Below, piece after piece: positions 12,186 through 55,541 of a DNA stretch of 62,501 bases (positions are counted from its first letter, which is position 1; each line of letters opens with the position of its first letter). The position numbers were made by a program, and so were the translations under genes. The DNA lies in the NCBI GenBank assembly GCA_905234125.1, contig CAJOGQ010000048.1:1-62501 (forward strand). Direction: 5' to 3'. This DNA is from an uncultured Bacteroidaceae bacterium (GTDB lineage Bacteria > Bacteroidota > Bacteroidia > Bacteroidales > Bacteroidaceae). Under the pieces are notes generated by a model that was given only the letters and a program-made list of their open reading frames with translations, made no database searches and was not told the origin of the DNA.

Positions 12186-12293
12186 TTGAAGGGAAGTTAA
12201 AGGGGAGTTAAAAGGAACAGAAAGGACGAGAATCTTTCGACAAGAGTATCGTCTCTATAACTTCCTTTTAACTTCCTTTTAATTTCCCTTCAA
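12186..12293 (+). terminator. 32-bp-stem hairpin between rplT and fabD
   Basis: Arms 12186-12217 and 12262-12293 are each 32 nt. All 32 positions pair in plus-strand RNA; three are G.U pairs and the rest Watson-Crick. The loop is 44 nt. The 3' arm is T-rich but there is no clean T-run, so termination is inferred from position after the ribosomal operon. Confidence 0.55.
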
Positions 12294-12297
12294 GTCC

Positions 12298-12347
12298 GTT
12301 CGAATCTATTCGAAACTGTTCTAATCTGTTTAAATCCGTTCTAAAAT
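12298..12347. repeat. five degenerate 10-bp tandem repeats upstream of fabD
   Basis: Units are GTTCGAATCT, ATTCGAAACT, GTTCTAATCT, GTTTAAATCC and GTTCTAAAAT, ending 10 nt before the fabD ATG. Three units contain a 6-bp palindrome (TTCGAA twice, TTTAAA once). Confidence 0.6.
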
Positions 12348-12357
12348 TATAATAGAT

Positions 12358-13245
12358 ATGAAAGCATTTGTATTCCCTGGTCAGGGCGCTCAGTTCACAG
12401 GAATGGGCAAAGACCTTTATGACACGAATCCTAAAGCGAAGGAATTGTTTGACAAGGCAAACGAGATCCTGGGCTTCGACATCACTAAGATTATGTTTGA
12501 AGGCACTGCTGAAGAGTTGAAGCAGACGAAGGTGACTCAGCCTGCAGTGTTCCTGCACTCTGTCATCTCTGCCATTTGTTTGGGCGACGCCTTCGATGCA
12601 GATATGGTGGGTGGTCACTCTCTGGGTGAGTTCTCAGCATTGGTTGCAGCAGGCGCATTGTCTTTTGAGGATGGTCTGAAGTTGGTTTCTCAGCGTGCTC
12701 AGGCGATGCAGAAGGCTTGCGAGGCAGCTCCTTCGACGATGGCCGCCATCATTGGATTGGACGATGCCAAGGTAGAAGAAGTATGTGCTTCTATCTCCAA
12801 GCCCGGCAACATCGTGGTGCCTGCCAACTACAACAACCCAGGCCAGCTGGTGATTTCTGGTAATGTGGAGGCTGTGAACGAGGCTTGTGAGGCTCTGAAG
12901 GCCGCTGGTGCCAAGCGCGCTCTCCCACTCCCAGTAGGTGGCGCATTCCACTCTCCACTGATGCAACCTGCCAAGGATGAGTTGCAGAAGGCTATCGAGG
13001 CCACGAACTTCTCTACGCCCAAGTGCCCCGTTTACCAGAATGTGGATGCCAAAGCTCATACTGATGCTGAGGAGATCAAGCAGAACCTCATCGCTCAGTT
13101 GACGGCTCCAGTGAAGTGGACATACGAGGTGCAGGCCATGATTGCCGCTGGTGCCACTGACTTCACAGAGTGCGGTCCAGGCAAGGCATTGCAGGGCATG
13201 ATTGCCAAGATTGACCGTAATGTGACGGCACATGGCATCGCATAA
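12358..13245 (+). CDS. fabD: malonyl-CoA:ACP transacylase
   Basis: A 295-residue FabD that moves malonyl from CoA to acyl carrier protein for fatty-acid elongation. It starts MKAFVFPGQGAQFTGMG; the nucleophile Ser is in GGHSLGEFSA, the substrate-binding Arg in LVSQRAQAMQ, the catalytic His in GGAFHSPLMQ, and the C-terminal ECGPGKALQGM is conserved. Full length. Its last 14 bases overlap the start of the GH13 gene, so the two are likely translated from one message. Confidence 0.97.
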   Translation: MKAFVFPGQGAQFTGMGKDLYDTNPKAKELFDKANEILGFDITKIMFEGTAEELKQTKVTQPAVFLHSVISAICLGDAFDADMVGGHSLGEFSALVAAGALSFEDGLKLVSQRAQAMQKACEAAPSTMAAIIGLDDAKVEEVCASISKPGNIVVPANYNNPGQLVISGNVEAVNEACEALKAAGAKRALPLPVGGAFHSPLMQPAKDELQKAIEATNFSTPKCPVYQNVDAKAHTDAEEIKQNLIAQLTAPVKWTYEVQAMIAAGATDFTECGPGKALQGMIAKIDRNVTAHGIA

Positions 13246-15067
13246 GTTCATAAGAAAGTATTTCTGTTGCATGGCAATAGGCTTCATCTGCTGTTGCCAT
13301 GCAACTTCTCAATCTTTACCCTCCTCAAGCAATACTAATAATATAGAATCAAAAACCTCATCCAACACCGATACTATGGAAAAGATAGTAATCTATCAGG
13401 TTTTCACTCGCCTCTTCGGATCCAATGCCAACAAGAACGTGAGCAATGGGACGAAGAAGGAGAATGGTTGTGGCAAGATGGCCGACTTCACAGGGAATGC
13501 CCTTGCCGAAATCAAGAAATTAGGCGCGACCCACATCTGGTACACGGGTCTCATTGAGCATGCAACGAAGACTGACTACTCGGAGTATGGCATCCAGAAG
13601 GATCATCCCGCAGTGGTGAAAGGCAATGCCGGCAGTCCGTATGCCATCAAGGACTACTACGACATCGACCCCGATCTGGCCGTGAAGGTGCCAGAGCGCA
13701 TGAAGGAGTTTGAGAATCTGGTGATGCGTACTCACAAGGCCGATCTGAAGATGATCATCGACTTCGTGCCCAACCACGTGGCTCGCCAGTATCATTCCGA
13801 TGCCAAGCCTGAAGACGTGAAGGATTTGGGCGAAGAGGACGACACGACGATGGCGTTCGACCCTCAGAACAATTTCTATTACCTGCCAGGCACGACGTTC
13901 GCACCCAATTTCTCTCTGCACGACGACGAGATGGGTGACTATGTGGAGACACCGGCCAAGGTGACGGGCAATGACTGCTTCACTCAGTGGGTGGGACAGA
14001 ACGACTGGTATGAGACGGTGAAACTGAACTACGGCGTGGACTATCAGGGCGACAACCGTCTGATATTCAGTCCTTCCACTCCGAGCACATGGCTGAAGAT
14101 GCGCGACATTCTGCTGTTCTGGGCATCGAAGGGTGTGGACGGATTCCGTTGCGACATGGCTGAGATGGTGCCGTGCGACTTCTGGGGATGGGTCATCCCA
14201 CAGGTGAAGGCGAAGCATCCCGACATCCTGTTCATCGCCGAAGTGTACAATCCGCATGAGTACCGCAACTACCTGCACCGCGGACATTTCGACTATCTCT
14301 ACGACAAGGTCGGATTCTACGACACGGTACGTGCCGTGATGGGCGGTCAGTCGGCCACCAGCATCACGGGAGCCTGGCAGAGCGTGGACGACATCCAGAG
14401 CCACATGCTCCACTTCCTCGAGAACCACGACGAGCAACGCATTGCCTCCCGATTCTTTGCTGGCGACGCACAGAAGGGCAAGCCCGCCCTGCTGGTGAGC
14501 GCCCTGCTGAGCACCAGCCCGATGATGGTCTATTTCGGACAGGAATTGGGCGAGCAAGGCATGTACTCCGAGGGATTCAGCGGTCAGGACGGTCGCACGA
14601 CCATATTCGATTACTGGACCATCGATCTCATCCGCCGATGGAGAAACAATAACAAGTTTGACGGCTCGCTGCTGTCGAAGGAGGAGAAGGAACTGCAGAA
14701 GTACTACACCCGGGTGCTCACCCTGTGCAACAAGGAGAAGGCCATCCGCGAGGGCCAGTTCTTCGACATCATGTATGTGAATCAGGGGCAGGGCATGAAC
14801 GAGCATCGCCAGTTCGCTTTCCTGCGCAAGGCTGACAAGGAGCTCATCCTCGTCGTTGCCAACTTCGACGGAGAGCCCGGACGTGCTTGGGTGAAGATAC
14901 CCGCTCATGCTTTCGAGTGCATGGGCATCCCCACAGACGGTACTCCCCGGGAGGCCAAAGACCTGCTGACGGGCAAGAAGGAGAAGCCTCAGGCGCTCAT
15001 CCCCGACGGCACCATCTATGTGGAGCTTCCCCCACAGGGAGGAAAGGTGCTGAAGTATAAACTTTGA
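13232..15067 (+). CDS. GH13 alpha-amylase-family enzyme, exported
   Basis: A 611-residue protein. The first ATG overlaps fabD and gives a basic n-region and hydrophobic core (MASHKFIRKYFCCMAIGF), fitting a signal peptide or lipoprotein signal; ATG 13271 is an alternative. The GH13 barrel starts at about residue 49 (KIVIYQVFTRLFG). The four usual regions are visible: DFVPNH, GFRCDMAE (nucleophile Asp), FIAEVYNP (acid/base Glu) and LENHDEQR (transition-state Asp). A C-terminal beta domain follows from about 520. It should act on alpha-1,4-glucans or related oligosaccharides outside the cytoplasm. Coupling to fabD is odd and probably reflects shared transcription only. Confidence 0.9.
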   Translation: MASHKFIRKYFCCMAIGFICCCHATSQSLPSSSNTNNIESKTSSNTDTMEKIVIYQVFTRLFGSNANKNVSNGTKKENGCGKMADFTGNALAEIKKLGATHIWYTGLIEHATKTDYSEYGIQKDHPAVVKGNAGSPYAIKDYYDIDPDLAVKVPERMKEFENLVMRTHKADLKMIIDFVPNHVARQYHSDAKPEDVKDLGEEDDTTMAFDPQNNFYYLPGTTFAPNFSLHDDEMGDYVETPAKVTGNDCFTQWVGQNDWYETVKLNYGVDYQGDNRLIFSPSTPSTWLKMRDILLFWASKGVDGFRCDMAEMVPCDFWGWVIPQVKAKHPDILFIAEVYNPHEYRNYLHRGHFDYLYDKVGFYDTVRAVMGGQSATSITGAWQSVDDIQSHMLHFLENHDEQRIASRFFAGDAQKGKPALLVSALLSTSPMMVYFGQELGEQGMYSEGFSGQDGRTTIFDYWTIDLIRRWRNNNKFDGSLLSKEEKELQKYYTRVLTLCNKEKAIREGQFFDIMYVNQGQGMNEHRQFAFLRKADKELILVVANFDGEPGRAWVKIPAHAFECMGIPTDGTPREAKDLLTGKKEKPQALIPDGTIYVELPPQGGKVLKYKL

Positions 15068-15091: not shown

Positions 15092-15140
15092 GAGTTGGTG
15101 TATTGACCGAAACATGGTCAATATACCAACTCTCTTTTTG
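15092..15140 (+). terminator. intrinsic terminator after GH13 gene
   Basis: Arms 15092-15108 and 15116-15132 form a 17-bp stem with a single G.U pair and a 7-nt loop. TCTTTTTG follows at once. Confidence 0.8.
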
Positions 15141-15145
15141 TAGAT

Positions 15146-15490
15146 ATAGTTGGAATATTACTCGAAGTATAGGTGGAATATTACTTGAAATATAGTATGA
15201 CAAATTGGCGGAACTACTTCAGCAAATATGGCAGGTATACTTCAAGTATTATTTGAAGTATACTTGAACTATTATTTGAAGTATACTTGAAGTAATATTT
15301 GAAGTATAGTTGGAAAAATATTCTTAGTTAGGTAAGAGTACCATTCTTAGTTAGGTAAGAGTACCATTCTTAGTTAGGTAAGAATATTATGCATAGTTAA
15401 CTTAGATGATTATACATAATATATTTGGACGATTATCCAAAGTATATTTCGGATAATCGTCCAAGTACGGTCGTAAGGAAAATGGAGGTA
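15146..15490. repeat. 15-unit degenerate array with exact 23-bp period
   Basis: The intergenic stretch 15068-15498 has no gene. From 15146 to 15490 it divides into fifteen 23-bp units with no length error, although unit sequences differ widely. Units 5-7 begin TACTT and end GAAGTA; units 8-11 share TTCTTAGTTAGGTAAGA across their junctions; units 13 and 14 have interiors that are reverse complements (arms 15425-15438 and 15451-15464, a perfect 14-bp inverted repeat). Many units keep short dyads (TACTT/AAGTA, TCTTA/TAAGA). The array stops 8 bp before the stop codon of the DUF3078 gene. Confidence 0.85.
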
Positions 15491-15498
15491 TAGGAACG

Positions 15499-16896
15499 TC
15501 AGAAGTTGTAGGACAGTCCGAGGGTGAAATATTCCTTGAACTGGAAGTATCCGAGTGTGTCGTCCCAATACTTCATGTCACGGTTGTCGTCAAACCGCCA
15601 TAGGGTGTAAATCTCGCTGGAGATGTACTTGTTGAACTGGAAAGTGAACACGTTCTCCATCTCTCCCTCCACATACTCGTAGGAAGTGAAAGTGTAGAAT
15701 CGGCATCGCCAGAGGAAGTTCTTGGCCAGCGTCAGCTTGGAGTTCAGCTCGATGCGCGAACCGAAGTCCTGCTGGAAATCCTTATCCTTCATGTTGAACG
15801 ACGCATGGATGGTCTCTTCCTCATCGCCGATGTAGCGCATCTTGTAGGAGAACGGCAACAGGGCCAGCGAGAAGGTGTTGCCGTTCTTGAGCGACGGCTT
15901 GAAGTCCATACCGAGCGAGGCGTTGGCGTCCAATGGGGCAAAGAACCTGGAGTAGGCCCTGCGGTCGTTGCTCCGATAGCCTGGCAGGAACTGGGTCTTT
16001 CCCTCGACGGAGAGCGTGTAGTACCACGACTTGGTGGCCTTCACGCCGAGCTTGGAGTAGAGGTCAATCTTGTCGTTGTTCGTCAGATAGCGGTGGATGG
16101 AGTCGGAAGTGGCCGTCACGAAACCGAGGCGAAGGTCGAGCTTGTTGTCCCACGAGAGACGCTTCTGGTCGTTGTAGTTCGCCTCGAGCTGGAGACCAGA
16201 GAGCAGGGTCACGTTGTTGTTACCACCTTTGTACCACTGCTCAGAGAAGTAGTTCTGCGTGAACTGCAGGGAGAACTTGCCCGTCGTCGTCCAGAAGTTC
16301 GGCTTCTGAATATGCAAGTCCAACTCCACATCGTCCACAATATCCGTCACATCCTTGATCTCATCCACCTTATTATATATATCCACCAGATCCTCCTTCT
16401 TCGCCTCCGTGGCCGGAAGCGTCGCCAAGATATGCTCCGAATTGATCTGCGCATCAGAATAGCGGAAAGCATTAGGATGGGAAATGTAGGCACGCATCAG
16501 GGCATGGCTGGAAAGACTCAATATCTGATCAGGAGCGCCAGGGAGTCTGGAGATTCCGGAGTTCTCAGAGATTCCGGAAAATCCAAAGTTTCCAGAAAAG
16601 TCCGGAGCATCCAATCTAAAGCCATCCTTCAAGGCCGAACTGAAATAGATGCCCGGCCCCATCAGTTGGTATATGTATGGCGACATCACCACATTGACCG
16701 AATCCGTCGGAAGCGCAATGGCCTGCTTGCCCGACTGCTGAATTTGCTTCTTATATTTGGAGACAATCGACGAGGCCAACCTGGAGTAGGAAGTCTGTGC
16801 TCCGGCCTGCACCGACATCAGAAAGCACATCAGGAGCAGGAGAAACAGGCGACATCCGAGAGGCCAGTCACGATGGAAAATAAGCTTCGTGTTCAT
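15499..16896 (-). CDS. DUF3078 outer-membrane beta-barrel protein
   Basis: A 465-residue protein with a long signal peptide ending QAGAQ. From about residue 195 it shows the DUF3078 pattern: FWTTTGKFSLQFTQNYFSEQ, WYKGGNNN and alternating amphipathic strands to the C-terminus, which ends in Phe (LGLSYNF) as outer-membrane barrels do. Residues about 98-118 hold a short Gly/Ser/Phe/Asn-rich repeat (GNFGFSGISENSGISRLPG). The function of the family is unknown. It has its own TAAATTTG promoter and is divergent from the small ribosomal-protein gene. Confidence 0.8.
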   Translation of the reverse strand: MNTKLIFHRDWPLGCRLFLLLLMCFLMSVQAGAQTSYSRLASSIVSKYKKQIQQSGKQAIALPTDSVNVVMSPYIYQLMGPGIYFSSALKDGFRLDAPDFSGNFGFSGISENSGISRLPGAPDQILSLSSHALMRAYISHPNAFRYSDAQINSEHILATLPATEAKKEDLVDIYNKVDEIKDVTDIVDDVELDLHIQKPNFWTTTGKFSLQFTQNYFSEQWYKGGNNNVTLLSGLQLEANYNDQKRLSWDNKLDLRLGFVTATSDSIHRYLTNNDKIDLYSKLGVKATKSWYYTLSVEGKTQFLPGYRSNDRRAYSRFFAPLDANASLGMDFKPSLKNGNTFSLALLPFSYKMRYIGDEEETIHASFNMKDKDFQQDFGSRIELNSKLTLAKNFLWRCRFYTFTSYEYVEGEMENVFTFQFNKYISSEIYTLWRFDDNRDMKYWDDTLGYFQFKEYFTLGLSYNF

Positions 16897-25064: not shown

Positions 25065-25139
25065 CGTTTTTAAAAAGGTAACCTTTTTTATCAGAAAAGT
25101 TAACCTTTTTTGCCAGAAAAGCTAACCTTTTTAAAAACG
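25065..25139 (-). repeat. 22-bp triplet repeat inside a 15-bp inverted repeat, pyrK leader
   Basis: CGTTTTTAAAAAGGT (25065-25079) is perfectly inverted at 25125-25139. Between and within the arms, TAACCTTTTT recurs at 25079, 25101 and 25123, an exact 22-bp period. On the transcribed strand each unit reads AAAAGGTTAxCTTTT, which can form its own 5-bp stem. Confidence 0.75.
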
Positions 25140-32409: not shown

Positions 32410-32510
32410 GTGCGCACCTGAATGGGTATTCAGGTGCGCACTTGTGTGATATTTAGGTGCGCACTTGGATGGCATGTAGGTGCGCACTTGGATGGCACGT
32501 AGGTGCGCAC
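32410..32510. repeat. five GTGCGCAC palindromes at 23-24 bp spacing
   Basis: The gene-free stretch 32321-32766 holds GTGCGCAC at 32410, 32434, 32457, 32480 and 32503. Spacing is 24, then exactly 23 three times. Flanks are related (TTGGATGGCATGTAG, TTGGATGGCACGTAG) but drift in the outer units. Confidence 0.85.

Positions 32511-54674: not shown

Positions 54675-55541
<867 letters not shown>

Follow-up and report, generated by a model that had tools for sequence, protein, structure and literature searches.

A mosaic array of palindromic 23-bp units belongs to a class of intergenic repeats with 22- or 23-bp pitch in Prevotella-type bacteria

We analysed a 62,501-bp stretch of DNA (the window) from an uncultured Bacteroidaceae bacterium whose genome is referred to here as G000. 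One spacer of the window lies between an Alpha-amylase (PF00128) gene on the forward strand (13232–15067) and a DUF3078 gene on the reverse strand (15499–16896). The end of the Alpha-amylase gene at 15067 is followed by a terminator-like hairpin of 18 pairs with the T-rich tail TCTTTTTGTA (15092–15132, forward strand), by a tandem array (15146–15490) and then by the stop codon of the DUF3078 gene at 15499, an arrangement that an earlier note on this DNA had described correctly. The hairpin flanks the array and is probably separate from it. The G+C content is 26% in the array core and 52% in the window. Elsewhere in the window, short 11- and 10/20-bp repeats (AAGGGAAGTTA, TAACTTCCTTT and GTTCGAATCT; 12189–12344) lie upstream of a gene that we take to resemble an ACP transacylase.

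The earlier note read the array as fifteen consecutive units in an exact 23-bp period. The period is real: identity at a lag of 23 bp is 0.686 over 15146–15490, compared with a mean of 0.292 and a maximum of 0.360 in 1000 dinucleotide shuffles, whose maximum across lags 5–59 is 0.402. At a lag of 46 bp, identity is 0.525. Neighbouring units from 1 to 15 share 20, 11, 9, 15, 21, 21, 15, 15, 23, 18, 15, 16, 14 and 8 of 23 positions, with p ≤ 0.001 for the step from unit 1 to unit 2 and for every step from 4–5 to 13–14. Weaker steps are 2–3 (p 0.04), 3–4 (p 0.14) and 14–15 (p 0.20). The array comprises 14 units (15146–15467) and is decayed around units 3–4; the putative unit 15 (15468–15490; 8/23) is not supported. 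Units 1 and 2 (15146–15190; 20/23 identical) are followed by the decayed units 3–4, with weak register and weak dyads (15191–15236), and by a core of ten 23-bp units (15237–15467). The finer reading of the units holds throughout: units 5–7 are near-identical (21/23 at both steps), units 9 and 10 are identical (23/23), and the interiors of units 13 and 14 contain GGACGATTATCC and its reverse complement GGATAATCGTCC.

The dyads that the note saw recurring are in register. Across the core, the unit type changes from AAGTATACTT via TCTTA-GTTAGG-TAAGA to GGACGATTATCC, and despite this change the palindrome centres keep a single phase from 15237 to 15456. The axes have 6–10 of 11 pairs, with a single weak axis at 15409.5 (4/11). 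The observed dyad score was reached by none of 300 permutations in which the columns of all 15 units were permuted alike. Sub-blocks of the array give p values of 0.04–0.11 and units 9 and 13 alone are non-significant (p 0.29 and 0.40), so that it is the array as a whole that supports the palindromes. A second axis 11.5 bp away (half a period) is a consequence of palindrome plus period and constitutes no separate evidence. The array is best described as a row of in-register palindromes within which some units (5–7 and 9–10) have been re-amplified, and the repeated local amplification that had been proposed fits such runs of near-identical units. Exact duplication of units followed by point changes leaves drifting units in register, and thus the retention of period while sequence is lost needs no selection. 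The units as read do not consist of a constant repeat with unique spacers, as a CRISPR would. G000 contains a single partial match to the array sequence outside the array locus itself; among 45 genus genomes, the only match besides those in G000 is a short one in G037.

The earlier note had also pointed to homologous spacers as a place where the period should recur. We matched a DUF3078 ortholog in 41 of 45 genomes and read the downstream region at 30 loci. The outcome is mixed: the period fails in G022, the genome closest by DUF3078 protein, where an 80-bp spacer contains a hairpin and no array, and some relatives have different arrays at the same spot. In a 79-bp spacer, G037 carries two palindromes of the AAGTATACTT type at a distance of 23 bp, and this core is also present in the array of the window. 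G016 has an array with a 21-bp period, G009 a GAACAATTGTTC-type array at 22 bp, and G043 and G041 have GTGTGAGTCACAC-type arrays at 24 bp; in G029 there are copies in both direct and inverted orientation at a step of 23 bp, and in G030 there are heptamers. No array was seen in the remaining loci of the 30. The G043 and G041 arrays are orthologous and can be aligned from the stop codon, the DUF3078 proteins being 75% identical, and this conservation suggests function rather than mere copying.

Two more arrays occur in the window. One has three palindromes of the AAAGGTAACCTTT type with a period of 22 bp and CGTTTTTAAAAAGG and CCTTTTTAAAAACG at its ends (25073–25132), and the other has five copies of GTGCGCAC at a pitch of 24, then 23, 23 and 23 bp (32410–32510). 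When near-identical palindromes were paired across intergenic stretches of G000, a set that includes four loci chosen because they bear arrays, 59 of 66 pairs fell at spacings of 22 (25 pairs), 23 (11), 44 (12), 46 (6), 66 (3) or 69 bp (2). One shuffle of this DNA gave 5 pairs and coding DNA gave 16, both without such peaks, and the peak is also absent in G033 and G031 (9 and 7 palindrome pairs).

We then scanned intergenic samples for at least three equally spaced palindromes, allowing any spacing of 12–40 bp, in stretches unselected for arrays except for the window and for the contig of locus L320, which was first fetched for another array. In 836 kb of G000, all 10 arrays have a spacing of 22 (7 arrays) or 23 bp (3). 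The same holds for 10 of 11 arrays in 746 kb from 40 stretches of 23 related genomes (2 at 22, 8 at 23 and one at 13 bp). In these samples the arrays are restricted to non-coding DNA, as 776 kb of G000 coding DNA contains none; nor did the scan find any in eight genomes that represent other families of the order (22 kb of intergenic sequence). Among the gathered loci, with a spacing of 18–28 bp allowed and at least three palindromes required, 128 distinct arrays were found after 15 duplicates of 143 had been dropped: 115 at 22 bp, 6 at 23, 3 at 21, 3 at 24 and 1 at 20. Under this minimum of three, 113 arrays have three palindromes and 15 have four; one shuffle gave no array. The sequence GAGTTAACTC, for which many of the loci were fetched, is contained in 88 of the 128. 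The other 40 have many different cores, for example TGACTCGAGTCA, TTCATTAATGAA, TTAGGCGCCTAA, TAATGCGCATTA, GAACATATGTTC and GTGTGAGTCACAC; several cores occur only once in the sample. Identity between adjacent units is 0.81–0.95 at core offsets 1–6 and 0.39–0.60 at offsets 8–10, indicating that cores are better kept than spacers, a contrast that stems in part from the detection rule itself.

A scan that ignores palindromes (lags 10–60, at least 2.4 units, 181 kb of intergenic DNA; arrays with N or with fewer units dropped) likewise gave quantised periods. It found 80 arrays, 24 with a period of 14 bp, 17 with 22, 18 with 23, 6 with 21 and 15 with other periods (none in the shuffle; the shuffle control of each array scan is a single shuffle). 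Thus, 35 of the 80 lie at 22–23 bp, and at least one such array is present in the sampled DNA of 13 of 27 genus genomes. From other families (24 kb of intergenic DNA), the same scan returned one array, with a period of 18 bp. Individually palindromic at p < 0.05 (whole-unit permutation) are 12 of 42 arrays at 21–24 bp versus 3 of 38 at other periods, and some 23-bp arrays (at loci L069, L283 and L291) have no clear palindrome. Palindromes may therefore not be what sets the pitch. These last arrays, from three genomes (L069:15406–15572, L283:16739–16828 and L291:17666–17783), seemingly have a GTGAC motif in common, as judged by eye. All scans cover one genome per species, in draft assemblies and as parts of genomes rather than whole, and ORF calling relied on a simple longest-ORF rule, not on a gene finder.

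The period-14 arrays, 24 of the 80, are by eye largely heptamers (GTTTAGA and CTCTCAA types) and represent a second quantised repeat class, with examples at L035:3050–3100, L052:12107–12208 and L291:19718–19814 and, in a putatively intergenic part of the window, at 54823–54873. The small dispersed and heptameric repeats of cyanobacteria are another known system in which very short intergenic repeats occur next to heptamer arrays.

A second mosaic array, L093:5919–6160, passes from TAATGCGCATTA via TCATACGTATGA to GATGCGCATG in a 22-bp register, and a change of unit type in register is thus not unique to the array at 15146–15490. We conclude that the latter is a long, mosaic member of an intergenic repeat class in Prevotella-type bacteria, which has palindromic cores of approximately 12–14 bp whose centres are 22 or 23 bp apart, mostly three or four cores per array and of many different sequences, and which occurs in about half of the sampled genus genomes. 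What needs explanation is the common pitch near two helical turns across arrays of different, often palindromic, sequence.

Ordinary minisatellites would be one explanation: replication slippage adds copies, substitutions blur them, and 22–23 bp just happens to be a favoured slippage length in these genomes. This would account for drifting units in register and for the 23-bp arrays without palindromes. Against it stand the two sharp period classes (14 and 22–23 bp; only three arrays of at least 2.4 units lie at 24–60 bp), the palindromes themselves, the prevalence of three or four cores (in the 128-array scan, where three were the minimum, and at 74 of the 80 GAGTTAACTC loci listed) and the occurrence of one core with similar ends in unlinked copies. 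We regard this explanation as improbable.

Unlinked copies are seen in the GAGTTAACTC family, the commonest one. Paired GAGTTAACTC cores occur in at least 117 stretches of named genomes; the 80 loci listed are mostly from Prevotella, Prevotellaceae and Bacteroidales, many of them from ruminants, and include P. communis and Mediterranea. All 20 places displayed, which were located by a pair of exact cores, hold three cores that are exact or carry at most two changes, separated by spacers of exactly 12 bp. Among the 80 loci listed, three is the most frequent number of cores (52 arrays), followed by four (22); 5 arrays have more than four and 1 has two. The step from core to core is 22 bp in 191 of 199 cases and 23 bp in the other 8, and none of the arrays lies wholly inside a called ORF. 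An exact pair is present in 5 of 45 genus genomes (G000, G018, G020, G037 and G039), with 7 pairs at five places in G000. Prevotella sp. Tb.RUG.325 has four copies of an element of approximately 235 bp that includes the array, which shows that arrays can be dispersed inside larger repeats. Neither these copies nor a comparison of the spacers L138 and L150, which are too diverged, revealed a clean empty site or a target duplication. IMG/VR contains no GAGTTAACTC pairs; AAGTATACTT pairs at 23 bp are found on two of its contigs (L260:10861–10893 and L261:5007–5039).

In one spacer, the 22-bp families GAGCCGGTAGCTC, CGTATGGTTTCCTTACG and GAGTTAACTC lie head to tail (L053:17690–17968; also L116–L119 and L126), and such composite contexts recur in G000, G018 and G037. 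Four GAGTTAACTC arrays are 6–81 bp from contig ends (contigs C59 and C77 of G000; C45 and C59 of G018), two of them with the same 20-bp flank, and composite repeats may break assemblies.

A 22- or 23-bp pitch recurs in arrays of unrelated sequence, and the spacing to which the earlier note pointed thus matters beyond this locus; selection on a long folded structure, by contrast, is not supported by our tests. A function in 3′ untranslated RNA, as hairpins or as bidirectional terminators, would be consistent with the strong predicted folds of the array at 15146–15490 (z −7.8 on the forward and −6.1 on the reverse strand), with two terminator-like sites inside it, with outward T runs that tend to sit at the ends of GAGTTAACTC arrays and with a weak symmetry that extends to spacers and flanks. 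Spacers are weakly symmetric about their own centres (0.436 in the GAGTTAACTC family versus 0.274 ± 0.014 after shuffling; 0.438 in the others versus 0.254 ± 0.021), and the outward flanks of non-GAGTTAACTC arrays complement each other better than re-paired flanks do (4.78 versus 3.47 ± 0.27 of 12), as would follow if entire units had originated as palindromes. However, complementarity between spacers (5.73 of 12) does not exceed that of re-paired spacers (5.81 ± 0.16), whereas their direct identity does (6.83 versus 5.41 ± 0.15), which points to duplication and not to a selected hairpin. Compensatory changes in cores are not above within-array shuffles (16 versus 12.3 ± 2.3 and 9 versus 7.2 ± 1.9) and those in spacers are below them, as is pairing inside GAGTTAACTC spacers (404 versus 442 ± 8); an apparent compensatory change in a count without within-array shuffles was gone in the controlled count. 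On transcribed strands, 30 G-T and 49 A-C mismatches give no G-U excess, and some arrays lie a few tens of base pairs upstream of gene starts. An Rfam search of eight array loci gave no match at the gathering score; the 13 hits at 15146–15490 are all below it and all microRNA-like. We consider a role at the RNA level very improbable.

It is possible, if rather unlikely, that the arrays are functional operator lattices, in which dimers of a DNA-binding protein sit in a row on one helix face and act near the ends of genes as a roadblock, an insulator or a nucleoid site. In that case the pitch would be the packing distance of the protein, and each type of core would have its own member of a protein family. 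Symmetric and conserved cores, less conserved spacers and a fixed pitch would be expected of such a lattice, as would fixed arms around a variable centre, seen in some arrays (e.g., GGACT-NN-AGTCC in 3 of 4 units at L294). The orthologous array kept at 75% protein identity also argues for it, as does gene context: non-GAGTTAACTC arrays are rarer in divergent spacers (2/47 versus a background of 42/190, p 0.003) and commoner in convergent ones (16/47 versus 32/190, p 0.014), in counts that leave out 3 of 50 arrays without an ORF on both sides. In contrast, GAGTTAACTC arrays have no positional preference (13/56 divergent versus 28/117; the count leaves out 24 of 80 arrays that have no assignable spacer of at least 90 bp between two called ORFs), the many cores per genome would demand many proteins, and no gene is widely associated with the arrays.

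The search for a partner gene covered both neighbours and candidate families. When 437 ORFs near arrays were clustered, one family occurred at four or more loci (maximum five), so that no neighbour recurs widely. PF01797 (RAYT/Y1_Tnp) has no match in any of the five GAGTTAACTC genomes, G000 (84% complete), G018, G020, G037 and G039, which are 73–98% complete. Across the 45 genus genomes, 20 have a match to it, 14 of them above the cut-off, and the 20 include other genomes with 22/23-bp arrays such as G002, G015, G016, G031 and G038; its absence from the five genomes shows only that RAYT is not a required partner. The Rpn-type nuclease PF12784, present in 4 of 45 genomes and in none of the five, was rejected on the same grounds, as was a transposase-like gene beside one copy (L117), presumably IS110, which among the five genomes only G018 has.

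We tentatively favour the explanation that these are self-propagating repeats akin to BIMEs and BrickBuilt, locally copied palindromes handled by a factor with a two-turn footprint, although we consider it somewhat more likely to be wrong than right. New units would arise as exact duplicates of their neighbours, variants among them would be amplified again (as in units 5–7 and 9–10), and some arrays would be copied to other loci. A candidate enzyme or binding factor, acting on palindromic double-stranded or fold-back DNA, would set the pitch by its two-turn footprint and keep the cores palindromic. We infer the factor, its footprint and the copying mechanism alike, and favour a copying or mobilising enzyme over a passive lattice of dimers. 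Consistent with such propagation are the peaks in pair spacing, the 22–23-bp arrays in both scans, the many cores, the dispersed GAGTTAACTC copies, the missing array in G022, the contrast between cores and spacers and the lack of GAGTTAACTC pairs in IMG/VR. The lack of a widespread neighbour gene and of a clean empty site, the orthologous array of G043 and G041 and the non-palindromic 23-bp arrays argue against it.

The closest known relative of the array is BrickBuilt, which lies in a MITE of Porphyromonas gingivalis and is an intergenic minisatellite with 23-nt units (PMC4596501). Like BrickBuilt, whose copy number varies among strains, the array at 15146–15490 is intergenic and consists of tandem 23-nt units without spacers. 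The published BrickBuilt consensus is itself palindromic by our analysis (9 of 11 pairs about one axis; permutation p 0.001–0.007, depending on how R/Y are read); in the accessible text of that paper, 'palindrom' is absent and 'dyad' occurs once (PMC4596501). However, BrickBuilt as described there is one sequence family with leader, tail, terminal repeats and up to 22.8 units, whereas we find many cores, mostly three or four per array. Its unit consensus AGAYCATARTATCCTCTCRTRTG matches units of the array at best at 10–13 of 23 positions (shuffled mean 11.4–12.1), and no place in the window reaches 18/23. The terminal inverted repeat GAGACCTTTGCA/TGCAAAGGTCTC has three window matches with two mismatches, none of them near the array (6.7 expected by chance). 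The verdict of the earlier note that no named repeat class fits was thus nearly right, since BrickBuilt matches in period and symmetry and not in sequence.

REPINs and BIMEs, extragenic palindromes with a RAYT partner (PMC3116915, PMC2817692), are regularly spaced in BIMEs and some clusters, as are the palindromes of the present class. According to the available parts of these papers, REPs are characterised by a common sequence and an associated RAYT gene, whereas the five GAGTTAACTC genomes have no PF01797 match, and the commonest inter-REP spacings in P. fluorescens SBW25 are 71 and 110 bp rather than 22–23 bp. A REP sequence class usually exceeds 100 copies per genome; in G000, the array sequence has its one other partial match and GAGTTAACTC its 7 pairs. 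Palindromic candidate RNAs of Bacteroidetes (PMC8040213) can be set beside the arrays by description, not by sequence, and PMC5771137, in its accessible part, names BrickBuilt only. In the open-access literature, we found no description of such arrays in Prevotella.

Known families of bacterial repeats are identified through sequence similarity, and a class held together only by pitch and symmetry would therefore be missed by the usual searches. Conceivably, though we are inclined to doubt it, this class is defined by its geometry: a machine with a two-turn ruler of 22–23 bp would create or maintain palindrome arrays from local sequence throughout the genus, and BrickBuilt would be one of its products. 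If true, this would give BrickBuilt a common frame with the arrays described here, and the quantised spacing makes the class directly testable. If a protein sets the pitch, it would represent an undescribed DNA-binding or DNA-copying activity in widespread gut and rumen bacteria.
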